This document shows positions 46,754-64,000 of a DNA stretch of 64,000 nucleotides, piece after piece. The stretch comes from Fibrobacter sp. UWEL (GTDB taxonomy: Bacteria > Fibrobacterota > Fibrobacteria > Fibrobacterales > Fibrobacteraceae), in NCBI RefSeq assembly GCF_900142535.1, contig NZ_FRBE01000008.1:62001-126000 (forward strand), given 5' to 3'. The stretch's first letter is position 1. The number at the start of each line of letters is the position of its first letter. The translations under genes and the position numbers were made by a program. A model generated the notes under the pieces. That model made no database searches and was not told the origin of the DNA. It worked only from the letters and a program-made list of their open reading frames with translations.

Positions 46754-47545
46754 ATGCTCAAGGGGATGGCCCGTTCCACCTTCTTCTACCATCTGCGCCA
46801 GAAGCCGGACCGTTATGCGGGAGAACGCAAAAGGGTCAAGGCAATACATGCGGAAAACAAGGGACGCTACGGCTATCGCCGCATAGCCGCCCAGCTACGG
46901 AACGAAGGATTTAAGATAAACCATAAGACCGTGTACAGGCTCATGAAAGAAATGGGGCTGAAAAACGTCCGCAAGACATGCAGGTACCGCTCGTACAAAG
47001 GCGAAGTCGGAAAGACTGCGCCCAACAGGCTGAATCGAAACTTCAGTACCGGAGCCCCCAACAGGAAATGGACTACGGACGTGACACAGATAAATATCGG
47101 GAATGAGAAATGTTACCTGTCTCCGATACTGGATATGTACAATGGGGAAATCGTGAGCTACACAATCTCGGATAGACCAAATCTCCAAATGGTGATGGAT
47201 ATGCTTGACAAGGCCTATGCCAAGGGTTACAAGTGGAAACGGCTGATACTGCACTCCGATCAGGGGTGGCACTATCAGCATGCTGACTATCAGCAGTCCC
47301 TGAAGGACCATAAAATCATCCAGAGCATGAGCCGCAAGGGCAACTGTCTGGACAACGCCATGATGGAGAACTTCTTCGGTATCATGAAATCAGAACTTCT
47401 CTATCCAAACACGTTCAGAAATATGGCCCACTTCAAGCAGGAACTCAAAAAATACATCGAGTACTATAACAATGACCGTATAAAACTGCGCCTAAAAGGA
47501 ATGAGCCCGGTTGGGTACCGGACTCACAACTCAGTTTTATCCTAA
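46754..47545 (+). CDS. IS150-type transposase OrfB (DDE integrase domain)
   Basis: 263 aa from the first ATG, but normally made as part of OrfAB; its frame is open upstream to the slippery site. It has the HTH_21 block (RYGYRRIAAQL) and an rve integrase core with the DDE triad: Asp in TTDVTQI (about residue 109), Asp in LHSDQGWHY, and Glu in DNAMMENFFG. The C-terminal YYNNDRIKLRLKGMSPVGYR is typical. All catalytic residues are present. Confidence 0.93.
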   Translation: MLKGMARSTFFYHLRQKPDRYAGERKRVKAIHAENKGRYGYRRIAAQLRNEGFKINHKTVYRLMKEMGLKNVRKTCRYRSYKGEVGKTAPNRLNRNFSTGAPNRKWTTDVTQINIGNEKCYLSPILDMYNGEIVSYTISDRPNLQMVMDMLDKAYAKGYKWKRLILHSDQGWHYQHADYQQSLKDHKIIQSMSRKGNCLDNAMMENFFGIMKSELLYPNTFRNMAHFKQELKKYIEYYNNDRIKLRLKGMSPVGYRTHNSVLS

Positions 47546-47578
47546 CTTTAAACTGTCCAACTTTTTGGGGTCAGTTCA

Positions 47579-47600
47579 ACCCTTGCGGGTCCTTTTTTTA
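47579..47600 (+). terminator. Right half of a terminator split by the IS
   Basis: ACCCTTGCGGGTCC then seven T. Joined to AAAGG at 46147-46151 it reforms GGACCC-TTGC-GGGTCC plus the T-run. Confidence 0.75.
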
Positions 47601-47634
47601 ATGACGTCACTAGATTCGCATATACTCCCGTGAA

Positions 47635-47883
47635 TCACCCTAGCTCCCGTGCATTTTTTTTCAAAGCAAACCAGTCCACTAAAGCATCGTAATCTGTTTT
47701 GGGTAAACCGCATAATTCCCAAACGGCAGTGTTTAACTCATCTTTGTAATTTCCCATTCGGTGACAGATTTGCAAAGCGCTTTCCATGCGCCCTATCGTA
47801 TAGCCATCATTGAAACCCTCAGAAAATGCTGAACTGGATGACTCATTCCAAAATTTCAAAGATCTCTTTCCAACGCGTTTCAT
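47635..47883 (-). CDS. Small hypothetical protein, 82 aa
   Basis: Its ATG at 47883 lies 41 nt inside the 3' end of the GHKL/HExxH gene in another frame. The residues after about 18 (SEGFNDGYTIGRMESALQ) resemble the C-terminal tail of Rpn/DUF4351-type proteins, so this may be a remnant tail rather than a full gene. No domain could be assigned. Confidence 0.5.
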   Translation of the reverse strand: MKRVGKRSLKFWNESSSSAFSEGFNDGYTIGRMESALQICHRMGNYKDELNTAVWELCGLPKTDYDALVDWFALKKNARELG

Positions 47884-49414
47884 AGCTATCTAATTCATTC
47901 CTTTTGATAATAAGATATTCCATGGCAAGTGTTAAGGCAAGACTAAATGACACGGAGGCATCCCCGCCAAAAACATGGCATTTTTCATGAACAAAAGTTC
48001 CAAGGGCCTCGTGAAATTTTAGAGCGTCAAAGCACCTGCGTTTCAAATAAATTGCCTTTGTGCGGAACTTAAAGGAGATACCCTGGTTATTGAATTTTTT
48101 TGAATAATTTTTCACCAGGCTCGCCATTCCTGTAACACCTGGCGAATCGTTACCTATGATTCTTTGATCGTATTTAGCTGTACTGTCAAAAAAATCTCCA
48201 TATATGTCCTGGACAACTTCTTCTAAAAGGTCAAAGGCCCTTTGTTCATGCGGCAAAAGTTCCGCGTCCATTACCATTCCGCCATTTTCTTCGCAAGCTT
48301 CTTCCAAGGATTTGTACCCCATCAAGGAGAACGTGCTCTGCCCAAGAATGTATTTGGTACTCTGCTTTTTAAGCCAGCTTTCCGCCTGCAACCTGCGATT
48401 CCTGCCGTACTGGGTAAAGACAGGGCTGATACAGAGTAAATTAGGAAATTCTTTCACGAATAAATCGCGTACACTTTTATCTTCACAAATTCGCCTTACG
48501 AGTCCATTGACTATCGGATACCAACTCTTCGAATCATAGTTTTTTGCAGGGTATTGCCGCCACACCTTCTTCATCTGTACAAGCATTTTCATTGCGCCAC
48601 TTGCAGAAATGTTGTCAACAACGTGGCCAATAACACGAATGATTTCACTATGGTAAATCGTTTCTCGTTCGCGGTCGCGTTCCTCGTACGAATGCAGGCA
48701 TACAACCAAATCGAACGGAATGGATCCCCTCAATTGATAACTGCAAAAAACAGGACCTCTGGGTCCAAAACCAAATGTAAAAGGCAGCGAATCGGAATAC
48801 GATTCTTTGGCACTGTAATATACAGCGCCTTTTTTCCCTTCCCATATAAGTTCTCCTAGCAAGGGATTTTCTGGATAATAAAAGGAATTCACAACCTCCT
48901 GAAATAATTCATAATCACTGGCGCTCACGCCTTCTAATTCCAGGCATGTTGTGTCAGATTTGTCTTCAACAACGTCATAGGCAAGCATTTCCATGTGCTT
49001 GCCATCGATTTGGTGGTCAATGTCAATAACTTTCAAACTCCAATCGCCTGAGCGCATTCTCACAGTCCATTTTTTATCACGATATGCACAAAGCGCTGCT
49101 ATTTTAAAGCCTTCGCCAAAATAGCCTGCATGGGTTTCCTGGCCGTCCCTTTTTGTGGATGCTCCTATATGCACTAGCCACTCATAATTGAAATTTATGC
49201 CAGCAGCCTCTAGCATCACAACCCCCTCTTTATACGAGAGTGAAAAACCGGAATGCCATTTGTCGTAACCTACGGCGTCATAAAAATTCTGCAGAAAATC
49301 TCTGGCGATAGAAAACGTTTTCCATTTTACGGGATACGTCAAAGCGATATTCAAGGGAACAATCGTACTGGATGACGTTTCACGAGATTCTTTATTGAGC
49401 GTGTTATAAAACAA
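47843..49414 (-). CDS. GHKL-ATPase-like protein with C-terminal HExxHxxGxxD motif
   Basis: 523 aa from a TTG at 49414, chosen because AAGGAGAGG lies 6 nt upstream and no in-frame ATG occurs until residue about 67. The N terminus looks like a GHKL (Hsp90/MutL/histidine-kinase) ATP site: an N-box ARDFLQNFYDAVG (Asn43, Asp46) and a lid GYFGEGFK (about 98-104). The D-box (EAAGINF) is weak. Near the C terminus, HEKCHVFGGD (His476) matches the extended zinc-protease motif HExxHxxGxxD of metzincin-like enzymes. I know no named family with this pairing. It lies among mobile and defence genes. Confidence 0.72.
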   Translation of the reverse strand: MFYNTLNKESRETSSSTIVPLNIALTYPVKWKTFSIARDFLQNFYDAVGYDKWHSGFSLSYKEGVVMLEAAGINFNYEWLVHIGASTKRDGQETHAGYFGEGFKIAALCAYRDKKWTVRMRSGDWSLKVIDIDHQIDGKHMEMLAYDVVEDKSDTTCLELEGVSASDYELFQEVVNSFYYPENPLLGELIWEGKKGAVYYSAKESYSDSLPFTFGFGPRGPVFCSYQLRGSIPFDLVVCLHSYEERDRERETIYHSEIIRVIGHVVDNISASGAMKMLVQMKKVWRQYPAKNYDSKSWYPIVNGLVRRICEDKSVRDLFVKEFPNLLCISPVFTQYGRNRRLQAESWLKKQSTKYILGQSTFSLMGYKSLEEACEENGGMVMDAELLPHEQRAFDLLEEVVQDIYGDFFDSTAKYDQRIIGNDSPGVTGMASLVKNYSKKFNNQGISFKFRTKAIYLKRRCFDALKFHEALGTFVHEKCHVFGGDASVSFSLALTLAMEYLIIKRNELDSYETRWKEIFEILE

Positions 49415-49415
49415 A

Positions 49416-49446
49416 ACGTACCTCTCCTTAGAAAAGAGAAGTACGT
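49416..49446 (-). promoter_or_regulatory. Hairpin masking the Shine-Dalgarno site
   Basis: In the mRNA, ACGTACTTCTC pairs with GAGAGGTACGT over 11 contiguous base pairs (one G-U) with a 9-nt loop. The 3' strand contains the Shine-Dalgarno core and the TTG follows at once, so translation of the GHKL/HExxH gene should be low unless the hairpin opens. There is no T-run, so it is not a terminator. Confidence 0.65.
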
Positions 49447-49496
49447 CGGGCAGTAATGTAGGTACAAATTAAAAAGCTGGCAAGGTGTTTAAAGAA

Positions 49497-49556
49497 ATTT
49501 TACAAAAAACTTCGCGCAAACGGGATGAAAAAAGCGTGTATAGTAATGAATAGGGA
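49497..49556 (+). promoter_or_regulatory. Upstream element shared by both Rpn-family genes, copy 1
   Basis: The order of words TTTTACAAA, CGCGCAAA, GTGTATA, AGTA and ATAGG is repeated at 52741-52800, about 50 nt before the other Rpn gene. It probably carries the promoter and argues for a start at 49606 rather than further upstream. Confidence 0.55.
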
Positions 49557-49605
49557 TGCTCTACTATTCCGCAGAGTGATATCATTCTGTGAACAAAAAA
49601 TGTAT

Positions 49606-50496
49606 ATGAATAAATCATTGCATCACGATTCTTTCTGCAGGGACGTTCTTTCCGATGTGGATAGTTTCCTGGAATTTATGGATTATCTTGCATTCCAGAA
49701 TGCGGATCTGCAGGTAATCATCAATCTTCTGGATATGAAAACCTTGGAGCGTATTCCGGGAGACTTCAGTGACACGGCGAATACAGGGTTCGCGGATCTT
49801 GCGTTCCGAGCCAAGGTAAAGCCGGAATACCTTCCGGGTGAAAAACCCGTGCAGGTGTGCGTGGGGTTCCTGGTGGAGCACAAGTCCTACATGGACAATG
49901 ACGTCCTGGAACAGTTCCGCAAATATCATTATCACCTGATGGTAGAAAAATTGAAGGAAAATGCAGTCAAGGGCATCCCCTCGATTGCAATCATTCTCTA
50001 CAATGGCAAGGAAAGCTGGAACCCGCTTGAAAAACTAAACTACTATCCCGATGTTCTGCGGGACATTGTACTTCCCTTCAAGGGAATCTTTGTGGATGTG
50101 GAAGGCATCGCAGACGAGGTTTGCCTAGAAAAGTTCAGCCCGCGCCTGGGGGCTTTCATTATCGCTTTGAAATATGCGCGCGAGCTGGAGCCCCACAGGG
50201 ACATCTTCAAGAATGCCCTTGAACGGCTTGATCTGGAAAAGGACCCTGACTTGGTGGCTTCCATTGATGTATATTTAAGGCGTTGGATATCAAAAAACTT
50301 TAAGGAGGTTTTCAAGATGGATTTCGTCAGACCGCCCTATAAGACAATTGAAGATGATGCACGTGAACAGCGCGAAGCCCTTGAGCGGAAAGTCGCCGAT
50401 AGGGATGCGTTGATTGCCGACAAGGATGCGGAAAATGCATCTTTGATTGCCCGCATCAAGGAACTTGAGGCGGCGCTTGCTGCTAAAAATGGCTAA
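49606..50496 (+). CDS. Rpn/YhgA-family PD-(D/E)XK nuclease
   Basis: 296 aa from the ATG at 49606, which gives the normal family N terminus (NKSLHHDSFCRDVLSD). The nuclease core shows GFADLAFRAK and VCVGFLVEHKS, with Asp and E-x-K metal-binding residues (PF04754-like). The C terminus is a charged coiled coil (REALERKVADRDALIADKDAE). Rpn proteins are DNA endonucleases that promote RecA-independent recombination; some act with a small inner-start product. An ATG at 49600 is an alternative start. A terminator follows. Confidence 0.85.
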   Translation: MNKSLHHDSFCRDVLSDVDSFLEFMDYLAFQNADLQVIINLLDMKTLERIPGDFSDTANTGFADLAFRAKVKPEYLPGEKPVQVCVGFLVEHKSYMDNDVLEQFRKYHYHLMVEKLKENAVKGIPSIAIILYNGKESWNPLEKLNYYPDVLRDIVLPFKGIFVDVEGIADEVCLEKFSPRLGAFIIALKYARELEPHRDIFKNALERLDLEKDPDLVASIDVYLRRWISKNFKEVFKMDFVRPPYKTIEDDAREQREALERKVADRDALIADKDAENASLIARIKELEAALAAKNG

Positions 50497-50523
50497 GTAG
50501 TTTTCAGTCACTATAAAATTTAG

Positions 50524-50553
50524 GCTACCCTGAATGATCGGGGTAGCTTTTTT
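50524..50553 (+). terminator. Terminator after the first Rpn gene
   Basis: A 7-bp stem GCTACCC / GGGTAGC is followed by TTTTTTTG. Confidence 0.8.
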
Positions 50554-50576
50554 GTTAGTTGAATCTTTTCAAGATA

Positions 50577-50592
50577 TGACACTAAAGTGTCA
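50577..50592. promoter_or_regulatory. Palindrome TGACACT-aa-AGTGTCA
   Basis: A perfect 7-2-7 palindrome 15 nt before the broken TonB-like gene. The same half-sites recur at 55034-55069 upstream of the DISARM-like operon, suggesting a common regulator. Confidence 0.5.
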
Positions 50593-50606
50593 AAATTCAA
50601 AACTAT

Positions 50607-50896
50607 TTTAATAGGTATGAAGTACTGTATTCTTGCGTTATTTGGCTTGCTGGCCTCCTGGGCTTCACCATATCTATAACAAATTATTAAAACACAGGCC
50701 AGGATTCGCGGGAAAGGTGACCTTAAATATCACCATTGCCCCGGATGGCGATGTCTCCAAAATCTCCGTGGCCTCTTCGACAACAGGCTATAGTGAATTT
50801 GATGGCGAAATCAAGTCCGCAGTCAGCCGCTGGAAGTTCAGCAAGGTTAAAAGCGGAAACACCACGGTGACAATACCGTTCGATTTTAGTGAATAG
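50607..50896 (+). pseudogene. Remnant of a TonB/AgmX-type C-terminal-domain protein
   Basis: An ATG at 50607 starts a signal-peptide-like stretch (KYCILALFGLLASWASPYL) that stops after 20 codons. In another frame, from about 50664, IYNKLLKHRPGFAGKVTLNITI continues to WKFSKVKSGNTTVTIPF, the C-terminal domain typical of AgmX/PglI and TonB-like proteins. A deletion with frame change seems to have joined the signal peptide to this domain. Confidence 0.65.
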
Positions 50897-50937
50897 GATT
50901 TGTAAAGTCCGCATCTCACAAAAAAGTAAAAATTTCA

Positions 50938-50978
50938 TTGTTTACATTTTGTATAATATATTGTATATTTGTAAACAA
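50938..50978 (+). promoter_or_regulatory. Candidate operator/promoter of the XRE-ImmA gene
   Basis: A 9-bp inverted repeat TTGTTTACA / TGTAAACAA (50938-50946 / 50970-50978) encloses AT-rich DNA with TATATTTG (50964-50971), an exact TAnnTTTG match. It ends 2 nt before the ATG at 50981. Autoregulation by the encoded XRE domain is plausible. Confidence 0.6.
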
Positions 50979-50980
50979 CA

Positions 50981-52051
50981 ATGGAGTTTGCGAATATGTC
51001 CGAAGTTTCCACTTTTGCTTTGCGATTGAAGAGCGCCCGCCTTATGAAGGGGTTCTCCATGGACGACCTTTGTGAAAGAATGGAACCGAAGGTCTCCAAA
51101 ATGGCAATTTCCAAGTACGAATCCGGGAAAATGGACCCAGACAGCGAAGTTCTGATTTCCTTGGCAGACGCGTTGGATCAAACCCCCGATTATTTTTTCC
51201 GCCCGTTCACTTTCAAACTGGAATCCATGCGCTTTAGAAAAAAGCAGAACCTAGGGGCCAAGCAAATTGAAAGCGTGAAAATGAACATTGCGGATTTCGT
51301 GGAGCGCTATGTCAATATCGAAGAAATCTGCAATGACGCCAACATCGATGTTGATTTTTCCTCCGTTCCTGTCGCCTCTGCAGAACAGGTCAAGGCCGCC
51401 GCAGTCAAGCTTCGTGAACGTTGGTGCCTGGGCAAGGACGGCATTGTCAATGTGATAGAAATGCTTGAAGAACACGGCGTAAAAGTTGTGGAGATTGATG
51501 CTCCTGACGGATTCGATGGCGTAAGTACCAAGGTCAACGATGTTATCCCGGTGATTGTCCTTGGAAAAAACTTTTTGTACGAACGAAAGCGTTTTACCGC
51601 GTTGCACGAACTTGGCCATTTGCTGCTGAATTTTGAAGACCGTTTTTCTGACAAGGAGCAGGAATCCCTTTGCAACCTGTTTGCAAACGAAATGCTGCTT
51701 CCTGAAACTGAACTTAGGCGTATCCTTGGCAATTGCAGGAAGAAGGTCTCCGTTAAGGAACTTCGACCGATTCAGATGCGATTCGGTATTTCCTGCGATG
51801 CCATTATGTACAAGGCCAAGGAATGTGGAATTGTATCTGCAGCGCTTCATAGGGGCTATTGCATAAGGAAAAACCAAAGTCCAGAATACAAGTCGTTCGT
51901 TGAAAGATCCGATTCTCCTGCAGAAACCTCACATCGTTTTGAGTCCCTGGTATATAAGGCTCTTGAAAACGAACTGATTACCATGTCGAAAGCGGCGAGC
52001 CTGCTTCGCACTGATGTCATGACTATCCGTAAGGAAATGCTGATAATCTAG
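50981..52051 (+). CDS. XRE regulator fused to ImmA/IrrE metallopeptidase
   Basis: 356 aa. The XRE helix-turn-helix is at about 10-70 (LRLKSARLMKGFSMDDL, ISKYESGKMDPDSE). The ImmA/IrrE peptidase follows, with zinc motif HELGH at 209-213 and downstream ANEMLLPE. These fusions control mobile-element or toxin-antitoxin genes and can cleave repressors. The ATG at 50981 abuts the operator; a second in-frame ATG is at 50996. No obvious partner gene is adjacent. Confidence 0.9.
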   Translation: MEFANMSEVSTFALRLKSARLMKGFSMDDLCERMEPKVSKMAISKYESGKMDPDSEVLISLADALDQTPDYFFRPFTFKLESMRFRKKQNLGAKQIESVKMNIADFVERYVNIEEICNDANIDVDFSSVPVASAEQVKAAAVKLRERWCLGKDGIVNVIEMLEEHGVKVVEIDAPDGFDGVSTKVNDVIPVIVLGKNFLYERKRFTALHELGHLLLNFEDRFSDKEQESLCNLFANEMLLPETELRRILGNCRKKVSVKELRPIQMRFGISCDAIMYKAKECGIVSAALHRGYCIRKNQSPEYKSFVERSDSPAETSHRFESLVYKALENELITMSKAASLLRTDVMTIRKEMLII

Positions 52052-52131
52052 AAGCCTTGATGGACGAAAACCCGAGATTGCCAAGGCAGATCTGTGAACA
52101 GAAGATTAGTGCGTGGAGATCTGCTTAAATC

Positions 52132-52190
52132 TTTGAATTTCGCTGAAATGCAGAAATAGAACGAAAGGACCCCTTGTGGGTCCTATTTTT
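52132..52190 (+). repeat. Remnant of an Rpn-gene 3' end with terminator, copy 2
   Basis: TTGAATTTCGCTGAAATGCAGAAATAG, then AACGAAAGGACCCC and a hairpin GGACCC / GGGTCC (52167-52172 / 52178-52183) with a T-rich tail, nearly identical to the end of the Rpn gene at 53690-53748. No matching gene body precedes it, but it may still terminate the XRE-ImmA transcript. Confidence 0.65.
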
Positions 52191-52249
52191 GCAATTGGCG
52201 GCGCTTCCTCACCATAGAAGCGGTATGGCGCCTGGGACGATTTCGCCCA

Positions 52250-52486
52250 TTAGGCTGCTCGTGTTTTTCGTCCCCTTGGGGCGCTTACAAATTGAGGAAC
52301 CATTTTCTGATTTTTAACCTGTTGCAGGAACATGTTGATTAGCCCCTGATACGGAACCCCGACTTTTTCGGCAAGTTCCTTAAAATAATCAATGACATCC
52401 TCGTCAAGTTTGATGCAGATAGTCTTCTTCAATTTTTTCGCATAAGGATTTTGAACTGCATTGGAAAAATCATAATTTGGCTTCAT
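52250..52486 (-). CDS. BrnA/CopG-like ribbon-helix-helix antitoxin, apparently orphan
   Basis: 78 aa from the second of two adjacent ATGs, chosen for its spacing to AAAGGAG. KPNYDFSNAVQNPYAKKLKK then ITIRLD-like ICIKLDEDVIDYFKELA and GVPYQGLINMFL match the BrnA/CopG antitoxin type. No BrnT-like toxin is visible upstream or downstream. An AT-rich palindrome lies in its promoter (52526-52546). Confidence 0.82.
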   Translation of the reverse strand: MKPNYDFSNAVQNPYAKKLKKTICIKLDEDVIDYFKELAEKVGVPYQGLINMFLQQVKNQKMVPQFVSAPRGRKTRAA

Positions 52487-52525
52487 CATTTTCTCCTTTC
52501 CCAATACTGAGCTGATTCCCATTCG

Positions 52526-52546
52526 AATATATATAATGTATATATT
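52526..52546 (-). promoter_or_regulatory. AT palindrome in the antitoxin promoter
   Basis: AATATATA-taatg-TATATATT, a perfect 8-bp inverted repeat about 40 nt before the antitoxin start. It is a candidate autoregulatory operator. Confidence 0.5.
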
Positions 52547-52740
52547 GATTCTTCTTTAGTCAAGGGATTTTTTTCATCCATTCTTCCTCCAGTCGCTACA
52601 TGCCTAAAAAGCGACGGCTTGATTCATCTAATAAATGCGCGGCACTCACCGCAAAAAGAACAAAGGCGTACTTGCTCTCGACTTTTGGGCGTTCCCTGGC
52701 TCCCATTCCCCACGTCATCCCTTCGGCAGGAAAAATTATT

Positions 52741-52800
52741 TTTTTACAAAGATTTCTCGCGCAAATGAGACGTTTGCTTCGTGTATATAAGTAGATAGGA
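52741..52800 (+). promoter_or_regulatory. Upstream element shared by both Rpn-family genes, copy 2
   Basis: TTTTACAAA, CTCGCGCAAA, GTGTATATAAGTAGATAGG in the same order as at 49497-49556, about 50 nt before the GTG start of the second Rpn gene. The rest of the interval 52550-52740 shows nothing recognisable. Confidence 0.55.
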
Positions 52801-52849
52801 ACCGTTCTATCTGCGAGCCGGCCGCGTCGCCGGATTATTCAGGATTCAA

Positions 52850-53716
52850 GTGGAAAAAAACAAGACGAAACTCGCGGAATGCGTTGACAATGCAACTGGC
52901 GTCGACAAAAAGGAGAAGATTATAGACTTCTCGAAAATCTATATCACCGACAGGTTCATGTTCCCTCTGGTCATGAGCCACAAGGAAATCGCAAAGCCAT
53001 TCATCGAGGCGGCTCTCGGCATCAAGATTTATGACCTCAAGGACCCCGAGCAGGAAAAGACGGAGCAGGTGGGCATCTTCAGCAAAAGCGTACGCTACGA
53101 CGTGTTCACACAGCAAATCAACGAAAACGGTGAAATCATCAGCTCCTTTGATATCGAGATGCAAATTGTTGATACAAAGGAACTTCCCAAGCGAGCTCGC
53201 TACTACCAGTCTGTTCGCGATACCAACGACCTGCGCAAGGGGGCCATGTACAAAAGTCTCAAGGACCAGTACGTACTCTTCATCTGCCCCGACGACATCT
53301 TTGGTGCGAAACAGGCCGTTTACAGTTTCCAGAACTATGCGACGGAAAATAAAAACATCGCTCTTAACGATCGTTCTTTCAAGAATTTTTATATTTTCAG
53401 TAACTACGGGAAACTTCCGGACGCACATCCCCTTAAGCCGTATCTGAAGTATTTCGCAACCAACACCGCCGACTCCACGGAGACTGAGGAAATCGATACC
53501 AAGGTGAAGTGGTACCAGGCTGACGAAGACACACAGGAGCGCTATATGACATGGGAACAGGAAATCCAGCTCGCCAGAGAAGATGCAGCCGAAGCCGCTA
53601 CCGAAAAAGAGCGCGAACGTAGTCAGAGAATCATCGCCGAAAAGGACAATGTCCTGGCCGAAAAGGATCGCAGAATTGCGGAACTTGAAGCGAAACTCGC
53701 TGAAATGCAGAAATAG
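52850..53716 (+). CDS. PD-(D/E)XK nuclease-family putative transposase (Rpn type)
   Basis: 288 aa from a GTG. Core motifs are DFSKIYITDRFMFPLVM, VRYDVF and SFDIEMQIVD, where Asp and E-x-Q stand at the PD-(D/E)XK positions (PF12784-like). The usual catalytic Lys appears replaced by Gln, as is common in this branch. The C terminus is a coiled coil of AEKD repeats. The family is linked to recombination and mobile DNA. A terminator lies 5 nt after the stop. Confidence 0.85.
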   Translation: MEKNKTKLAECVDNATGVDKKEKIIDFSKIYITDRFMFPLVMSHKEIAKPFIEAALGIKIYDLKDPEQEKTEQVGIFSKSVRYDVFTQQINENGEIISSFDIEMQIVDTKELPKRARYYQSVRDTNDLRKGAMYKSLKDQYVLFICPDDIFGAKQAVYSFQNYATENKNIALNDRSFKNFYIFSNYGKLPDAHPLKPYLKYFATNTADSTETEEIDTKVKWYQADEDTQERYMTWEQEIQLAREDAAEAATEKERERSQRIIAEKDNVLAEKDRRIAELEAKLAEMQK

Positions 53717-55154: not shown

Positions 55155-57746
55155 ATGGAAACAAAAGAGATTATAGCTAAAGCATTTCAGAAATGTGACC
55201 TTGCCTTAAATGGTAATATCATTTCTAGAGAATACATTCTGCAATCTCTTTTTACGTTTCTAAATGATTCTTCTGAAAAAAAAGCGCATAATAGCAGCTT
55301 CGTGTTGCATACGGGATCCATTTGTTATGATGCAATAGCCGTTGCATTTGCGTTTTTAACGTGTCTTGTAAAGAATACATCAAATTCTATCGATATAATC
55401 AATAATTTAAAGATAGGGGATTTTGTTCTCTATGCGCGAGGCAATAAACAGGAAAAATGCAAGTATAACGGAAAAATATTTTCTGATAATGAGGATGCCG
55501 TAAAATTAATCTCCGGAAAAAAAACGGAGTTCACCGTTCCCAAAAGCCGTTGGAATTTGATATTCCCTTACAATGGAAAATCAAAAAGATTAGATGCCAG
55601 AGGAATAAAAAAAATTCCTCCCTCGAGAGAATTGTTTTACACTAATATTCTAGATATAGAAAAAAAAGAAATTCCAAGCATAATAGATTGTTCTGTTGTC
55701 TTTGTAATGGATCGAAATCGCGCAACAGAAATTATTAAAAATTTATCGTTTAAAACCAACAACGGGAATGAATTCAAAATTCTCGATATGATAAATGCCG
55801 CCTATTATTCTGAAGATGAGGATTATTCTATTGGAAGCAACAATACAAAAAGCGAAGCAAATATAAAAATTACAAGTAAGGTTTCTGTCGCAAGACAATT
55901 AGTTGTGAATCAAGATGGCAATAACCACATTGGATTAATCATTTCTGGAAATGACATTGTTTCAAAGAATATTACTGAGATTCCAGAAATGCTCAAAAAA
56001 AGATCTTTGTCATTTGTCCATACATTCTTGAACATTGACTCAGATAATACTCTACAGCTAATTCGAGAATCCCAGGATCCCGAAATTTTCGCATGTACTA
56101 AAAGTTTCCTGTCAAAAACTTCTTTAGAAATCTGTCTTGAAAATGAATACACTCAGGAACTTATATCACAAGCAAATTTGGTCAAAAATCATAGTGTAAA
56201 TACGCATTATTTAGATGGATTTTTAACCTGGAATGATTATAAACAATTTAAGAAATCTGTTTTTATCATAAAAAAATCTGATTATGAATCAGAGCACAAA
56301 GAAAATTTTATTTTATGCGCTTATTCTATGATGAAACTTTTTCTAACAGCAATTTTCCCCTTAGAAAAGTTAGAAGCATGCGTAGAAAAAAAACTTATAG
56401 ACATTGAGTCCTTAAAACAGCGATTTGATTTGCTTAAGTCATCTGTACATCATTTTCCAGATGATTTAAAAATAAAGGCAGAAGAAATTATTTCTATGCT
56501 TGAACTTTTACAGGAATCTTTACTAACAAAATCTGATAAATGTGCATGTATTGTAAATAATTTAATTACGAGTACTGATGAAAAAATTGCCATTGTTGTT
56601 CCCAAAGCGTATTATATTACGATTGTTAGAGAATGCGGCTTATACGATACAATAAAACAGAAAAATACCATAACAGTGGTTACTGCTAATAAATTTGACA
56701 ATAGCGAAAACTATAGGCAAATTATTGTTGTTGGAAATTTTGGAGGAAAAAGGTTCAATATTTTCAAATGCATGAGTTCGTCGCAAATAGACGTTTTACT
56801 GTACAAATTTGAAGAAAAAATATTCAAACATTGGGAAAAGAAAAATAATTTGGAAGAAAAGGAAATTCTCCAAGCATCTTCTGAATCCTTCTTCAATCAA
56901 CCAATAAGTCAGATATACGATGATGAAGTAAACGAAATCGAATCTATTGAAAAAAGTGTTGATGATTATATTAACATGCTAGAATGTAAAAAATTGGCTC
57001 GAGATGCAGATTCTGTGAATAAATCTGAAAACTTTTCTCAAAAATCGGAAATAATTGCAATAGGGCAATTTGATAACGGAGATCACGTATTTTTCTCTAA
57101 GTTTTACAAGGCATATGTGTTTGATGAAAATAACGGAAAAGTCAAAGAAGTTGAGGCAAATGATCTAACAGAAGGTGATTCTATTGTTTTTACAAGAAAC
57201 AGCGATAAAACCAGTGACATTGTTGATTCCGTTTTTGAAAACTTAAAAGACAATAACAAACTAGGACAAGATTTGATTACGCATTGGGCTTTTTCGATTA
57301 CTTGGAAATCAAATTTTCAAAGTTTTATGCTCTCAAATAATTTAACCGCAAAAGAAATTGCGGATAAAATGTTGAAAAATGGCATTCAAGTAAAAGAAAT
57401 GACTATCCGAAGATGGCTTGATCCATACGCACACATTGTTGGACCCAGAGACATGGAGTCTATTCAACATATTGCATTAGTTATAAATCACAATGGTATG
57501 TTTGATAATGCTGACAAAATCTTTGAAGGATGCCAGGCTATCAGAAAATTCCGCAAGGAGTTGATAAAAGAAATCGGTTTTGCAATGATTGATAAACTCA
57601 ATGGCAGAACAACACCGAGAAACAAACTTATGGAAGGATTTTTTGATCAACTTAATACATTTACCCGTGTTCTTAGATTAGAAAAAATAACATTTGTAAA
57701 TACATCTGTTCCAATAAATTTAATCAATCGACCTCTTCATCCTTAG
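55155..57746 (+). CDS. drmE: DISARM anti-phage protein DrmE-like
   Basis: 863 aa, soluble, low GC. No classical motif is obvious. Its size, its place as first gene before drmA-drmB, and its C-terminal region suggest DrmE of class 2 DISARM; that region has TAKEIADKMLKNGIQVKEMTIRRWLDPYAHIVGPRDMESI, a wHTH-like stretch. Codon use and AT content differ sharply from the chromosome to the left. AAAGGAT precedes the ATG. The next gene starts 7 nt after the stop. The molecular role of DrmE is not established. Confidence 0.75.
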   Translation: METKEIIAKAFQKCDLALNGNIISREYILQSLFTFLNDSSEKKAHNSSFVLHTGSICYDAIAVAFAFLTCLVKNTSNSIDIINNLKIGDFVLYARGNKQEKCKYNGKIFSDNEDAVKLISGKKTEFTVPKSRWNLIFPYNGKSKRLDARGIKKIPPSRELFYTNILDIEKKEIPSIIDCSVVFVMDRNRATEIIKNLSFKTNNGNEFKILDMINAAYYSEDEDYSIGSNNTKSEANIKITSKVSVARQLVVNQDGNNHIGLIISGNDIVSKNITEIPEMLKKRSLSFVHTFLNIDSDNTLQLIRESQDPEIFACTKSFLSKTSLEICLENEYTQELISQANLVKNHSVNTHYLDGFLTWNDYKQFKKSVFIIKKSDYESEHKENFILCAYSMMKLFLTAIFPLEKLEACVEKKLIDIESLKQRFDLLKSSVHHFPDDLKIKAEEIISMLELLQESLLTKSDKCACIVNNLITSTDEKIAIVVPKAYYITIVRECGLYDTIKQKNTITVVTANKFDNSENYRQIIVVGNFGGKRFNIFKCMSSSQIDVLLYKFEEKIFKHWEKKNNLEEKEILQASSESFFNQPISQIYDDEVNEIESIEKSVDDYINMLECKKLARDADSVNKSENFSQKSEIIAIGQFDNGDHVFFSKFYKAYVFDENNGKVKEVEANDLTEGDSIVFTRNSDKTSDIVDSVFENLKDNNKLGQDLITHWAFSITWKSNFQSFMLSNNLTAKEIADKMLKNGIQVKEMTIRRWLDPYAHIVGPRDMESIQHIALVINHNGMFDNADKIFEGCQAIRKFRKELIKEIGFAMIDKLNGRTTPRNKLMEGFFDQLNTFTRVLRLEKITFVNTSVPINLINRPLHP

Positions 57747-57753
57747 GAATAAA

Positions 57754-60700
57754 ATGCAAGAATATATTCAAGCCCGTAAAAATTATGTATCACTCATAAA
57801 AAAAGAATTATTAGGTCCTGGATCTGAAGTTTCTATCCCAGATGAGGAACATGAGTTAATATCGAACACACCTGATGTCCGATATTCTATTGGTATTTTA
57901 TTTCCCCAAAATAACAAGTTGAACGCCGATAATGATGATAGTGTTCGCGGAAAAGAGAATGATGAAGAAAAAGATTTAGACGATGCAGACGATGATGATG
58001 TTGGAAATGGGAAAAACGTAAATAATGAATCAAAAGAAACTATATATTCTCCTGCAGACGAAGAAAACTTAGATGAAGAAATTGGACTTGCGTCGCAAAA
58101 TATGCCCTCATCAATGGGTATAACTTTTTTTGCAAAAGGAGATACTTCTGTTGTAAAATGCGATGTTTCTTTTGGCACATATCGTCATGCGGAACCCAAA
58201 GATTGCAGGATTCCGTTTTGTCCCCAAAATATAGAGTCGTATGAGGTGCCAACAGAATTATCAGGTTATATAAACCATGATAAAGACGAGAACTGCCTCA
58301 AATTTAAAAACGGAAAATTTGAAAAGAAAGATATAAAGCATTTGTGGGAAAATGAATTCCTTAATACAGAACCAAACGGAACCTTGAATTACGCATATAA
58401 GTTATGTGATCAATTGAGGGGTTATGTTAGAATTCCTCATCAAATTGTAGTGCAGGTGAATTTTGATGGCGGCGATTATGTTGATAATAACGAAAAGCTT
58501 GATGGTGTAGATGTCAAATTAACAGCATTACGTCGAAAAGTTGGAGAAAATCTTTACTCTGTTACGATTATGCTTGTTAATAGTTGTACAGAAAAATCAA
58601 ATGGCACTAGGTGTATTTTTCAGCCAGAAATCCGCATTGACACAGAAAAAAATGATTTCGTTTTTTGTGAGTATTATGGGCAAACTGATTTTTTATTACT
58701 TGATGAAGAAGAACAATCCCTTGATTTACAATATCGTAATAAAAAAAAATATGGCACGGGATTAGGAGTATCTCTTTCATGGAACGTTGATGATAATGGA
58801 CATGGAAAAATATTTAGTGATTTTTTTCCAGAAAATGAAGTTCCCCAAATGGATTTTAGCATGCCTGCCAAATGTATGTTAGATGGCAGAATCCTTTCAA
58901 TGAAATTTTTATCAGATTTAAATGATGTTTCAAAATCAGAAAAAATAAGTCTACTGAAAAAATTTGTTGATTCTTATAAAAATTGGATTGATGAACTTCA
59001 AGAAAAATTAACTAAACTAGATGCTAAATACAAAAATATTGGACAACGTAATATTGATAAGTGCACAACATCTTATAAGCGAATGATGAAGGGTATAGAA
59101 AACCTTGATAAAGATGATTTGCAATGGCAAGCGTTTGAATTGGCCAATAGAGCGATGTTTATGCAGAGAGTACATCTTGAACTTCAGAAAAAAACGGCAA
59201 ACATAGACAGATTCCCAGATGATGAAGAATTATCTAAATTATTAAATTCTATAAACTACAATGCTTCAGATGAACTTACTGCGGATAAGTACACTTGGCG
59301 TCCGTTCCAGTTAGCATTCTTATTAATGAGTGTAGATTCCATTACTAATGATAAATCTGATGATAGAGAAATTGTGGATTTAATATGGTTCCCAACGGGT
59401 GGTGGAAAAACAGAAGCTTATCTTGGCTTAACCGCATTTACAATTTTCTATAGACGAATAGCTCATAGTAAAGTATCGGGTGGAACTTCTGTAATCATGC
59501 GATACACGTTGCGATTACTTGCAGCGCAGCAATTTACACGAGCCGCAACATTGATTTGTGCATGTGAGTATATTCGTCAAGATTCATTAAGAAAAAAACC
59601 TCAATATAAAACATATCCCCTTGGCGAAGAGGAAATATCTATTGGTTTGTGGATTGGGCGCGAGCATACTCCAAACAAAAATGATGATGCAAAGAAAAAT
59701 TTAAAAGAGTTAACTAATGATGTAAGAGTTGATAATTTAAGAGAAAAAAAAGATAGATTCAACAAATTCCAAGTTTTAAAGTGTCCGTGGTGTGGAACAA
59801 AACTGGTAAAGGGAATAAAGGACAAGCGTTTAGTTGGAGAATTTGGCTATAGAATGAAGAATAACAGCCATTTCCAGTTTTTCTGTCCACAAGAAAGTTG
59901 TTCTTTTAACCTATTCGGCAAATTACCTTTACAGGTAATAGACGAAGAACTTTATGCAAATCCACCAACACTACTCTTTGGTACGGTTGATAAATTTGCA
60001 ATGTTACCATGGAATAATAATATAGGATCTTTCTTCGGATTGAAATCCGATAATCGAACTCCAGAATTAATAATTCAAGATGAACTTCATCTTATTTCTG
60101 GACCTTTAGGCACTATGGTTGGCTTATATGAAACGGTAATTGACGCCTTGTGTGAGTCAAAAGGCGTAAAATCCAAAATCATCGCATCAACTGCGACAAT
60201 TCGTCGTGCGCATGAACAATGCTCTGCTCTGTATAACAGAGAGGTTTTGCAATTTCCACATCCTGGCTTAGATGCTGAAGACTCTTTTTTCGCCCGGGAA
60301 TCGTTGATTGATTATGAAAAAAATAAGTATGGAAGATTGTATGTTGGTTTAATGCCTTCTGGCAAGACGAAAGCAATGATGGAAGTTCGTTCCATTGCGG
60401 CTTTGCTTCAAAAAATCAACACAATGCCATTGCCAGATGCGATTAAAGATAAGTATTGGACTTTAACGACATACTTTAATTCCTTAAAGGATTTGGGCAA
60501 GTGTTCTACTCTTGTAGATGATGACGTTAAGGACTTTATTAAACGTTCTGCTTATAGGTTAGGTTCCAAAAAAGACGGTCGATTAGTTACAAGAGCAGAT
60601 GAATTAACTAGCCGAGTTTCTACTGGGCAATTAAATGAAACTTTAGATAAGCTTGAGAAACTGGAATATTCTGAAGAAAATATAAAGAATAAACGATACG

Positions 60701-61407
60701 CTTCAAATATTCTTCTTGCGACCAATATGATTTCTGTTGGTATCGATGTTGCAAGATTGAATGTAATGCTTTTAGTCGGGCAGCCCAAATTGACCAGTGA
60801 ATACATTCAGGCATCAAGCCGCGTTGGACGTTCTTACCCAGGCGTTGCCTTTGCAATGTACGATGGTTCAAAAAGTAGAGATAGATCTCATTATGAACAA
60901 TTTAAGCCTTATCATGAATCATTCTACAAATATGTAGAACCTACTGGAGCAACGCCATTTTCTGAACCCGCAAGAGAGCGAGCTCTAAAGGCAATTGTAG
61001 TTTCACTACTAAGGCATTTGAATCCTGAATTGTCTCCAGAAGATGGTGTTGCAAAATTTTCTAAAAATAACTATGCTAAGCAAATTGCTGATTTAAAACA
61101 ACTTATCATTTCAAGAGATAAGGCAATTATAGCACGTTTAAAATCCGGCATGAACGATGATTGTGAAAAAATAGAATATGAAATAGATAGAATTGTGGAA
61201 GATTGGGATCATTTGGCACAGGTATATAAAGATGAACTATTTGTGTACGGAGAACGCTTCTTAATGTCGCCACCCAAAGAAAAACAGCATAGATTGTTAA
61301 AAATATATAATACAGACACTTATGATACTGCAGCATTTAACACTATGACTTCTATGAGAAATGTTGATTCTGCGGTTCCTGGTAATGTTGTGATATGGGA
61401 GAAATAG
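57754..61407 (+). CDS. drmA: DISARM helicase DrmA
   Basis: 1217 aa. An acidic low-complexity segment (about 65-110) precedes a superfamily 2 helicase core: Walker A FPTGGGKTEAY (Lys552), a DELH box (Asp776), IIASTATI, and motif VI QASSRVGRS (about 1019-1027). A four-Cys zinc-binding insertion (CPWC about 677 and CPQESC about 711) lies between motifs I and II. This layout is that of DrmA, the DNA-binding motor of DISARM that with DrmB recognises phage DNA. It sits between drmE and drmB with gaps of 7 and 1 nt. Confidence 0.9.
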   Translation: MQEYIQARKNYVSLIKKELLGPGSEVSIPDEEHELISNTPDVRYSIGILFPQNNKLNADNDDSVRGKENDEEKDLDDADDDDVGNGKNVNNESKETIYSPADEENLDEEIGLASQNMPSSMGITFFAKGDTSVVKCDVSFGTYRHAEPKDCRIPFCPQNIESYEVPTELSGYINHDKDENCLKFKNGKFEKKDIKHLWENEFLNTEPNGTLNYAYKLCDQLRGYVRIPHQIVVQVNFDGGDYVDNNEKLDGVDVKLTALRRKVGENLYSVTIMLVNSCTEKSNGTRCIFQPEIRIDTEKNDFVFCEYYGQTDFLLLDEEEQSLDLQYRNKKKYGTGLGVSLSWNVDDNGHGKIFSDFFPENEVPQMDFSMPAKCMLDGRILSMKFLSDLNDVSKSEKISLLKKFVDSYKNWIDELQEKLTKLDAKYKNIGQRNIDKCTTSYKRMMKGIENLDKDDLQWQAFELANRAMFMQRVHLELQKKTANIDRFPDDEELSKLLNSINYNASDELTADKYTWRPFQLAFLLMSVDSITNDKSDDREIVDLIWFPTGGGKTEAYLGLTAFTIFYRRIAHSKVSGGTSVIMRYTLRLLAAQQFTRAATLICACEYIRQDSLRKKPQYKTYPLGEEEISIGLWIGREHTPNKNDDAKKNLKELTNDVRVDNLREKKDRFNKFQVLKCPWCGTKLVKGIKDKRLVGEFGYRMKNNSHFQFFCPQESCSFNLFGKLPLQVIDEELYANPPTLLFGTVDKFAMLPWNNNIGSFFGLKSDNRTPELIIQDELHLISGPLGTMVGLYETVIDALCESKGVKSKIIASTATIRRAHEQCSALYNREVLQFPHPGLDAEDSFFARESLIDYEKNKYGRLYVGLMPSGKTKAMMEVRSIAALLQKINTMPLPDAIKDKYWTLTTYFNSLKDLGKCSTLVDDDVKDFIKRSAYRLGSKKDGRLVTRADELTSRVSTGQLNETLDKLEKLEYSEENIKNKRYASNILLATNMISVGIDVARLNVMLLVGQPKLTSEYIQASSRVGRSYPGVAFAMYDGSKSRDRSHYEQFKPYHESFYKYVEPTGATPFSEPARERALKAIVVSLLRHLNPELSPEDGVAKFSKNNYAKQIADLKQLIISRDKAIIARLKSGMNDDCEKIEYEIDRIVEDWDHLAQVYKDELFVYGERFLMSPPKEKQHRLLKIYNTDTYDTAAFNTMTSMRNVDSAVPGNVVIWEK

Positions 61408-61408
61408 A

Positions 61409-63769
61409 ATGAGTCTCGATTGCAAATCTAAAAAACAGCCATTAAATAAAGTTACCCACTCTGTAAGAGCATCTCAATCCGTATTGCAGTACGGTGTTGG
61501 TGCAATGGTTGATTTTCCAGATCAAACTCTTATGACCGCGGCTCCCGAATTATGGGAAAGTTGTGTAAGGCCCATTCACGATGAACGTTTAGAAAAGGCT
61601 TTGCATGTTGATTTTTTGGGAATGCCCGATGGTGAAAAAATTTCAAAAGATGGTAATAATGGGATTTCTTACGCCCGTTTTCCAGAATGGTATTTTTGTC
61701 CCAAATGCAGACAATTTCAATCTATTAACTCTTGGGTTGACGAATTTAAACATAAAGCAAGTTCCAAGGCTCAAGAATACGACCCCTTTATGGTAAAACA
61801 GATGCGCTGCCCTACATGTAAGCAAGGACTTGTTGTCGCGCGTATTATTACAGTTTGTGAACACGGCCATATTGATGATTTCCCATGGGTAAAATGGGTA
61901 CATTGCAAAAATATATATGGGGGAAACAAACCTATTTGTTCGAGCCCAAAGCTAACATTTAAAACTGGAGCCACATCAACTGAAGGCCTGGAAGGCCTTG
62001 TTATTACATGTGAAAGCTGTGGCGTAAAGACCACATTAAAAGGAGCTTTTGATCCAGAAATCTTTCAAAACTTAGATAAAAAATACAATAATCAATATGA
62101 TTTTTCTTGTACAGGGCGACATCCATGGAAGAACGAATCCGAGACTTGTACTGAATATCCTAAAGTTTTGCAACGAGGTAGTTCATCTGTTTATTTCCCT
62201 GTCACTTCAAGTTCTTTAGTTATACCCCCATATTCAAGCATTCTTACAACCAAAATTGAGAATTCTCAAGCATTTGAGGCCGGTAGAAACGCAATTATGG
62301 CTTTTTTAAAAATGCCTGGTATTGCTCAAGAGATGAAAAATCAGTTTCTGGATACGCAAATAGGCGATATCGCTAAAAAGGTTGCGCTTGAAATAGTAGA
62401 GTCTTCTGAGCAGATAAAGAATGTTTTAATTCGTAAGTGGAAATCTGAATCAGAAGAAGAATATAGCACAGTCAGTGTTAAATATCGTTCTGAAGAATAT
62501 GAAGCATTGAGCGGCGAAGTAGCTTTGGAATCTATGGCAGGAGATTTTCAACGAGAAGAAACAAATATTGAAGATTATAATCTACCCTTTGTAAAACAAA
62601 TTTCCCTTATTCATAAGATTCGAGAAGTTCAGGCTCTTACGGGTTTTTCCCGGATAAATCCTGCAGATAAATCAGAACCGATTGGGAAACAGGGACATGT
62701 TGTATCGGTCAAAAAAAACGATACAAATTGGTATCCAGCTTATGAAGTAAATGGTGAAGGAATTTTTATTGAATTTGATTCTGACGCTATCAATGAATGG
62801 CGAACACAAAATTCAGAATTACAACATAGAGTAGAACTTTTGAACGATAACTATAAAAAATCATTTATTGGTTCGCATAATCCACGAATCATAACTGGCA
62901 AATTTCTTCTCTTACATACCATATCCCACTTATTAATTAAGCAGCTAAGTTTTGAATGTGGATATAGCATTGCGTCGTTACGAGAACGTTTGTATTGTAG
63001 TGAACCTGCAGAAGGAAAAGATATGTCAGGGATTTTTATTTATACAGCATCTGGCGATTCTGAAGGCACTTTGGGCGGTTTGGTTCGACAAGGAAGACCC
63101 GACACATTCCCATATATATTCAAAAAAGCGATAGAATCCGGAATGGTTTGTTCTAATGATCCTGTTTGCAGTTTAAGTTTAGGGCAGGGCCGAGATTCGC
63201 TAAATCTTTCGGCCTGTTATTCATGTGGATTACTTCCAGAAACTAGTTGTGAAGAGTTCAATATTTTCTTAGATAGAGGAACTGTTGTCGGAACATTCAA
63301 AAATAAAGAATTGGGATTCTTTTATAGGCAACTATATTGCAATGAAAAATGGGGGACTCTGCCAAAATCACAAAATGAAAAAACAGATACAACACCATTA
63401 GCAGAAACTATTTTGCCAAAAGAAGGTACAGGAATCAATTATACCGATGAAAGCTTCATAAATATATGGTCAAATATAAAACAGTGGTCTGACAACGAAA
63501 ATGAAATGAAATTGCTAGATGCATTGATTACTGAAAGCGCAAAATTTAATTGTAAAGAAAAACCTATTGGAGAAGGTGAATTTATAACTTTCAGCTCTAA
63601 TACATCGTACAAAGCTTCGCTTCTTTGGAAAAAATCTAAAGTAATGTTTTTCTCTTCAGAACAACAAGAAGATTATGATGTTGCCAAAAAAAGTAATTGG
63701 AAATGTTTCATTGGTAGCGATGAAACTTTAAATGTAGATGATATTTTAAAAAATCTACAAGGGGTGTGA
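61409..63769 (+). CDS. drmB: DISARM protein DrmB (DUF1998, zinc-binding)
   Basis: 786 aa. The start RASQSVLQYGVGAMVDFPDQTLM, the Cys pairs in YFCPKC, RCPTC and ITCESCG, and the CEHGHIDDFPWVKWVH block are typical of DrmB. The C-terminal DUF1998 part (about 490-640) has HTISHLLIKQLSFECGYSIASLRERLYCS and further Cys (SNDPVC, ACYSCG). DrmB pairs with DrmA in the DISARM core complex. The gene starts 1 nt after drmA and ends 1 nt before the NERD gene. Confidence 0.9.
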   Translation: MSLDCKSKKQPLNKVTHSVRASQSVLQYGVGAMVDFPDQTLMTAAPELWESCVRPIHDERLEKALHVDFLGMPDGEKISKDGNNGISYARFPEWYFCPKCRQFQSINSWVDEFKHKASSKAQEYDPFMVKQMRCPTCKQGLVVARIITVCEHGHIDDFPWVKWVHCKNIYGGNKPICSSPKLTFKTGATSTEGLEGLVITCESCGVKTTLKGAFDPEIFQNLDKKYNNQYDFSCTGRHPWKNESETCTEYPKVLQRGSSSVYFPVTSSSLVIPPYSSILTTKIENSQAFEAGRNAIMAFLKMPGIAQEMKNQFLDTQIGDIAKKVALEIVESSEQIKNVLIRKWKSESEEEYSTVSVKYRSEEYEALSGEVALESMAGDFQREETNIEDYNLPFVKQISLIHKIREVQALTGFSRINPADKSEPIGKQGHVVSVKKNDTNWYPAYEVNGEGIFIEFDSDAINEWRTQNSELQHRVELLNDNYKKSFIGSHNPRIITGKFLLLHTISHLLIKQLSFECGYSIASLRERLYCSEPAEGKDMSGIFIYTASGDSEGTLGGLVRQGRPDTFPYIFKKAIESGMVCSNDPVCSLSLGQGRDSLNLSACYSCGLLPETSCEEFNIFLDRGTVVGTFKNKELGFFYRQLYCNEKWGTLPKSQNEKTDTTPLAETILPKEGTGINYTDESFINIWSNIKQWSDNENEMKLLDALITESAKFNCKEKPIGEGEFITFSSNTSYKASLLWKKSKVMFFSSEQQEDYDVAKKSNWKCFIGSDETLNVDDILKNLQGV

Positions 63770-63770
63770 T

Positions 63771-64000
63771 ATGGCAATTATGATTCCTGTGACACCGCAT
63801 CAATTTGCTCCTGCAAGTCAAGAAGGTTTGATGTTTGACGCATTAAGCCTTTTACCAAATGACTATTACATTTTTCATTCGTTCCGAATAACAACCGTAT
63901 CAAACTTGCAATTCAACGAAAGCGAAACTGACTTCGTTATTTTCAATCCAAAGCTAGGAATTATATGTTTAGAAGCAAAAGCGGGTTTGGTAAAATACGA
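63771..64000 (+). CDS. NERD-domain nuclease-like protein, N-terminal fragment
   Basis: Cut by the window end after about 76 codons. The visible part has a NERD nuclease core: SQEGLMFDAL, the ESETDFVIF acidic strand and IICLEAKAG, where Glu, Asp and E-x-K form a PD-(D/E)XK site. The ATG comes 1 nt after the drmB stop, so it belongs to the operon. Many NERD proteins continue into a helicase domain; that part, if any, is outside. In textbook DISARM a PLD-type drmC would be expected in this area. Confidence 0.8.
   Translation, partial: MAIMIPVTPHQFAPASQEGLMFDALSLLPNDYYIFHSFRITTVSNLQFNESETDFVIFNPKLGIICLEAKAGLVKY

Follow-up and report, generated by a model that had tools for sequence, protein, structure and literature searches.

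A class 2-type DISARM operon of Fibrobacter with a NERD-helicase gene directly behind drmB

Introduction

DISARM systems of class 2 comprise the genes drmMII, drmE, drmA, drmB and drmC, and in class 1 the position corresponding to DrmE is held by the SNF2 helicase DrmD. DrmAB of Serratia is autoinhibited by a trigger loop and activated by unmethylated DNA with a 5' overhang, with its methylation sensitivity running through V1296 (PMC9142583). The PLD nuclease DrmC is typical of DISARM but dispensable and often missing, and the way in which these systems destroy DNA is therefore unsettled (PMC9142583). Many uncharacterised DISARM-like classes have been noted (PMC12458937), and McrBC was reported beside DISARM-like cassettes (PMC11090510). 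The former study mentions NERD for TALON only, a system that unites a NERD nuclease in one operon with an ARMADA-like YprA helicase containing a fused inactivated RNase H domain, and with TPR-CSD and TBP genes, while a domain review lists NERD for Mokosh and Nhi-like systems. In stand-alone NERD-helicases (Nhi-like proteins and the DRT-associated RTasNERD-Hel), which act either by themselves or together with a reverse transcriptase, the domain is fused to an SF1 helicase.

Here we describe a locus of Fibrobacter sp. UWEL (genome G000, 3.53 Mb), in which a DISARM operon of class 2 type runs directly into the gene of a NERD-helicase. The analysed window comprises 64,000 nucleotides (C8:62001-126000), and its contig was followed further to the right in the stretch L003, whose positions are converted to window coordinates by adding 61999. 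No description of a pairing of DISARM with NERD was found in the open-access literature (subscription papers lay outside the scope of the search), and an earlier description elsewhere is possible. Since neither PADLOC nor NCBIfam links the NERD protein to DISARM, such systems are likely read as nuclease-less DISARM.

Results

Organization of the operon

An earlier note, made from the letters of the window alone, had described three genes separated by gaps of 7 and 1 nt with a fourth one starting 1 nt later, and had named the first three drmE, drmA and drmB. ORF calls reproduce this arrangement on the plus strand, and the three names, each belonging to a complete gene, were confirmed with curated NCBIfam and Pfam models:

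55155-57746, + strand: drmE, 863 aa (NF038316, 601 bits; PF24957, 53 bits)
57754-61407, + strand: drmA, SF2 (YprA-like) helicase, 1217 aa (NF038325, 957.5 bits; PDB 7s9v_A, E 8.6e-149)
57937-58107, + strand: low-complexity, acidic loop at about residues 62-118 of DrmA, aligning with the trigger-loop region of Serratia DrmA
61363-61365, + strand: V1204 of DrmA, equivalent to V1296, which is proposed as methylation sensor in Serratia (alignment SMRNV / SMREV)
61409-63769, + strand: drmB, 786 aa (NF038324, 461 bits; PDB 7s9v_B matches residues 17-638)
63323-63766, + strand: C-terminal extension of DrmB, residues 639-786, beyond the solved Serratia DrmB
63771-64000 in the window, L003:1772-3487 as a whole, + strand: NERD-SF1 (UvrD-like) helicase gene, 571 aa (ORF and family scans)

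The respective cut-offs are 80 bits for NF038316, 27 bits for the Pfam family DrmE_C (PF24957), 950 bits for NF038325 and 240 bits for NF038324, and DrmB additionally matches PF09369 with 36.4 bits (cut-off 24.2). The window thus contains the class 2 components DrmE, DrmA and DrmB, latter being a DUF1998/MZB protein encoded apart from the helicase. The sensor valine of DrmA is conserved as in class 2 DISARM, as part of an SMRxV motif found in 55 of 87 DrmAs, and the acidic loop was placed by a phmmer alignment to residues 178-265 of 7s9v_A that is weak on its own (12 bits).

The fourth gene, which extends past the window edge, had been taken for a NERD nuclease. The NERD domain stands, with 37.4 bits in Pfam against a cut-off of 22.1, whereas the bare nuclease does not, as the gene also matches UvrD_C_2 and encodes a fusion of NERD to a helicase, for which RTasNERD-Hel scores best in PADLOC (194 bits). 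Six aligned NERD proteins share residues D54, E68 and K70, the Walker A motif and the DEGQD box. The window protein resembles the stand-alone NERD-helicases in its fusion to an SF1 helicase, although it differs from them in being tied to drmAB. With TALON, the operon shares a YprA-family helicase and a NERD protein, but, as in DISARM, it encodes the helicase and the DUF1998 part separately, and none of the fused RNase H domain, TPR-CSD or TBP genes was detected in the operon by family scans.

The earlier note had suggested a variant form of DISARM, with a NERD protein in place of drmC or ahead of it. This proposal is supported: neither ORFs nor family scans revealed a drmC in the operon or the remaining contig, a standard drmC set behind the NERD gene, named at the time as a contrary outcome, is not found on the continuing contig, and the genome contains no match to the DrmC family (NF038319). 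In contrast to class 2 DISARM, the window system thus has no drmC and instead a NERD-SF1 helicase.

The G+C content drops at ~55 kb from about 0.45-0.50 to 0.30-0.40 and stays low until ~71 kb, which points to a horizontal acquisition of the operon. Within the phylum, DrmB is carried by 2 of 168 genomes, and a scan of the phylum detected full-length NERD relatives of more than 60% identity only in these two.

Genes downstream and a second Fibrobacter locus

The earlier note had seen no methyltransferase within the operon, a view that is overturned by the continuing contig, where a C5 methyltransferase lies just outside the window and opens a run of further genes:

L003:3528-4586, + strand: C5 methyltransferase MTase1, 40 bp after the NERD gene (PF00145, 174 bits)
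L003:4579-6441, + strand: GHKL protein (NF050001, 296 bits, nearly full length)
L003:6438-7541, + strand: C5 methyltransferase MTase2 (ORF and family scans)
L003:7538-9586, + strand: McrB, a McrB-like AAA protein
L003:9583-11442, + strand: McrC-like protein, named from its position after McrB
L003:11502-11517: terminator-like hairpin, a kind of match that is also expected by chance

With MTase1, which scores 209 bits for DrmMII in PADLOC and 268 bits for a general type II methyltransferase model, the run contains the C5 cytosine methyltransferase of class 2 DISARM, though placed after NERD and not before drmE. Its relatives among the surveyed loci (described below) are methyltransferases directly upstream of drmE (42-44% in L036, L037 and L050), which is consistent with MTase1 acting as DrmMII. 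The junctions downstream of MTase1 overlap by 4-8 nt. The GHKL protein is related to the restriction enzymes BbrUII/HgiDII, although its score is below the NF050001 cut-off of 550. Since pairs of GHKL protein and C5 methyltransferase were found alone on plasmids, GHKL and MTase2 are most readily regarded as a restriction-modification unit of their own. For the McrC-like protein, Pfam, PADLOC and NCBIfam gave no match, and the G+C content of its gene is above that of the rest of the block. The run may be related to LlaJI, in which two C5 methyltransferases are combined with subunits akin to McrB and McrC. Its methyltransferases and McrB-like AAA protein are present in that order, but the methyltransferases are separated by the GHKL gene, and the run as a whole is preceded by DISARM. 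McrBC was reported beside DISARM-like cassettes (PMC11090510), and its presence here is therefore no surprise.

In the second DrmB-bearing Fibrobacter genome (G008, L006/L023), drmE, drmA, drmB, NERD and MTase1 follow in the same order, with identities to the window of 49, 72, 69, 62 and 83%, respectively. Behind them are a different GHKL protein (30% over 146 residues), a 307-aa protein and McrBC (McrC 48%; McrB 48%, in its C-terminal part only), whereas MTase2 is missing, leaving a single methyltransferase. The conserved block therefore extends from drmE to MTase1, and part of the rest is exchangeable. At L006:2943-6215, the place of the GHKL and MTase2 pair is taken by a 733-aa protein, which matches GHKL ATPases twice, and by the 307-aa protein, which has no convincing Pfam family.

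The surroundings of the Fibrobacter sp. UWEL run hold several other genes. To its left, the window encodes at 46754-53716 an IS3-type integrase, YhgA-like and PD-(D/E)XK-family transposases and a protein with HTH and IrrE-like peptidase parts. At 47843-49414 on the minus strand lies the gene of a 523-aa protein without a Pfam family, in which an HEKCH (HExxH) motif and boxes resembling those of GHKL proteins were discerned by eye. Just to the right, L003:12188-13285 encodes a DUF1016/YhcG PD-(D/E)XK nuclease.

Recurrence of the drmAB-NERD pairing

Relatives were collected with an alignment of DrmB, as patterns from the window NERD protein alone were too specific and found none. The 80 genome loci with the DrmB closest to that of the window, together with plasmid loci, gave 88 usable ones. 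NERD adjoins drmAB in 46 of these 88 DISARM loci, a proportion that is biased towards window-like DrmBs and provides no frequency for DISARM at large. The gene immediately follows drmB in 22 cases and immediately precedes drmA in 24. The earlier note had proposed to survey the recurrence of drmB followed by NERD, and NERD is indeed found beside drmAB elsewhere, including 10 of 59 plasmid records with DrmB. In 41 of the 88 loci neither arrangement is found, and NERD is therefore not required.

Three gene orders are distinguished, namely drmE-drmA-drmB-NERD in Fibrobacter and gut Firmicutes (group a), drmE-NERD-drmA-drmB in many phyla (group b) and UvrD-drmA-drmB-NERD mostly in alphaproteobacteria (group c). 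Representatives of each order gave Pfam matches to NERD, and the divergent members L061 and L101, which are below Pfam detection, have kept the D...ExK motif. Near-zero gaps or overlaps at the junction are also found in the other NERD loci. In viral contigs, the NERD alignment detected two loci; of these, L108 clusters with the Rhizobium NERD of a DISARM locus.

DrmB phylogeny nests the clade of the window, which comprises 8 loci and has an SH-aLRT of 98, within a broader NERD-less drmE group. The NERDs of group (a) form one clade, with a stand-alone gene of a Selenomonas plasmid as sister (100/99), and in two loci of group (c), L073 and L090, the NERD protein belongs to the lineage of group (b). 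A single clade of all DISARM-linked NERDs is rejected (AU p = 0.0013, in a test with six outgroup rows and groups partly named after a first tree was seen). Within each of the three arrangements the NERD and DrmB trees agree, and the distances of both proteins correlate with r of 0.90-0.92, a value reached in at most 1 of 2000 permutations.

DrmC, as identified by a profile and its HKD motif, is found among the surveyed loci only in the class 1-like plasmids L020 and L022, from which alone the profile was built, so that distant PLD nucleases could be missed. In the 59 plasmid records with DrmB, DrmC is beside DrmB in 18, mostly cyanobacterial, NERD beside drmAB in 10 and both in none. The chance of such absent overlap, uncorrected for taxonomy, is 0.018, or 0.051 with near-copies removed, which is no more than suggestive of a mutual exclusion of DrmC and NERD on plasmids.

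The neighbourhoods of these loci contain additional defence-related genes. A C5 methyltransferase and an HpaII-type restriction enzyme are directly upstream of drmE at L027:1393-6320 and L038:1326-6282, and Vsr with a C5 methyltransferase was found in L024 and L026; restriction enzymes are thus mixed and matched around the DISARM clade of the window. In the UvrD-drmA-drmB locus of Anaerosalibacter, a reverse transcriptase (group II/Drt3a-like) follows drmB (L070:11857-13968), in a slot that in its relative L073 is occupied by NERD.

Structural features of DrmE and DrmB

The predicted structure of DrmE (pLDDT 86) matches SF2 helicases including RIG-I, MDA5, Snf2 and Chd1 with E-values down to 9.7e-7 and a probability of 1.00. 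The TM-scores are low (0.2-0.3), and the domain arrangement therefore differs or the match is partial. A P-loop at the expected place was found in 0 of 35 DrmEs. By its model, DrmE is probably an SF2-like fold of a dead helicase. The drmE position of the group (c) loci is occupied by a UvrD helicase, and the equation of this alphaproteobacterial protein with DrmE was dropped, as these are true UvrD helicases whereas DrmEs are without a P-loop.

A further difference to described class 2 DISARM is the additional C-terminal domain of DrmB, which covers roughly 140 aa and has no counterpart in the solved Serratia DrmB. It is present in group (a), the NERD-bearing gut clade including L039, and was not found in the nearest NERD-less relatives L028-L031. 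The DrmBs of L078 and L099, whose genes are followed by that of a NERD-less SF1 helicase, have a similar tail, which is therefore not exclusive to NERD systems. AlphaFold models the extension with a pLDDT of ~90 over residues 670-784 and the order H-H-E-E-E-H-E-H. The best PDB matches in Foldseek are PvuRts1I and AbaSI and, lower, Can2, none of them significant (best E 0.17), and no catalytic D-ExK set is conserved in the extension. As judged from the model, the domain may adopt a PD-(D/E)xK fold, and we hypothesize that it could serve the NERD protein as docking site.

The UvrD helicases that follow the tailed DrmBs are encoded at L078:12074-14182 and L099:6960-9137. The N-terminal part of the former weakly matches a ParE-like toxin domain, a combination that recalls the fusion of RelE to a helicase in ARMADA type II.

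Discussion

The genomic association between NERD and DISARM is solid, and the mechanism proposed for it below is tentative. We regard it as likely that the locus encodes a horizontally acquired class 2-type DISARM with the NERD-SF1 nuclease-helicase filling the optional slot of DrmC. In favour are the matches to curated models, the 1-nt junction of drmB and NERD, the absence of DrmC from operon and genome, its lack of overlap with NERD in the plasmid sample, intact residues, the sensor valine, the recurrence and the correlated divergence. The repeated occurrence of the pairing across many bacteria and several separate lineages suggests that NERD contributes to the working of these systems, presumably as their effector.

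A replacement of DrmC need not be an effector, since DrmC is itself dispensable in the tested DISARM (PMC9142583). The NERD protein might thus be an accessory helicase-nuclease for repair, processing or counter-defence that travels with DISARM, with DNA destroyed by the downstream GHKL/McrBC proteins or host nucleases, as could also be argued from close relatives such as L028 and L031, which are devoid of NERD, and from the restriction enzymes beside the operons of others (e.g. HpaII-type in L027 and L038). We consider this unlikely in view of the intact nuclease and helicase motifs, the divergence correlated with DrmB and the repeated association in separate lineages, and since McrBC was seen beside the two Fibrobacter operons only. 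The uninterrupted run on one strand with short gaps in Fibrobacter would also agree with a NERD gene that belongs to a downstream restriction module (NERD-MTase-GHKL-MTase-McrBC) and adjoins drmB by chance. This origin is disfavoured and appears highly improbable, because six gut relatives (L024-L027, L032, L038) carry NERD behind drmB without such a module and with a methyltransferase upstream of drmE, because NERD and DrmB have concordant trees in every arrangement, and because the closely related full-length NERDs of the phylum are confined to the two DrmB genomes.

The nine genes could also form one composite defence system, in which DISARM and a LlaJI-like restriction system with two C5 methyltransferases and McrB/McrC share their methylation. 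The restriction part has a precedent in LlaJI (PMC1459862), and the composite finds support in the published association of McrBC with DISARM-like cassettes and methyltransferases (PMC11090510); it would account for the common strand, the overlapping downstream junctions and the presence of a GHKL protein and McrBC after MTase1 in both Fibrobacter genomes. Yet the GHKL proteins of the two differ, G008 lacks MTase2, the N-terminal parts of McrB are unmatched, McrBC adjoins NERD-DISARM among the surveyed loci in Fibrobacter only, GHKL and C5 methyltransferase pairs occur alone on plasmids and the G+C content of McrC is higher than in the rest of the block, which together make a composite system improbable.

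Returning to a class 2-type DISARM with NERD in the DrmC slot, the most economical reading would assign the role of sensor and motor to DrmAB, that of self-marker to MTase1 and that of unwinding and cutting enzyme to the NERD-helicase. MTase1 would mark host DNA as self, and DrmAB, following the precedent of the Serratia structures, would load on 5'-overhanging ends of unmethylated DNA and translocate. The NERD-helicase, perhaps docked via the clade-specific C-terminal domain of DrmB, would then unwind and cut the bound foreign DNA; its nuclease role, the docking and an anti-phage activity are what we infer for these systems. A wider proposal, which we find somewhat doubtful, sees a distinct and widespread branch of DISARM that captured nuclease-helicases as effector at least twice and probably three times, with the pseudo-nuclease domain of the gut-clade DrmB as docking site and DrmE, a dead SF2 helicase, as DNA-end or loading platform. 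With a second, unrelated nuclease beside DrmAB that co-diverges with DrmB and is not seen together with DrmC, the question of how DISARM destroys DNA becomes directly testable.
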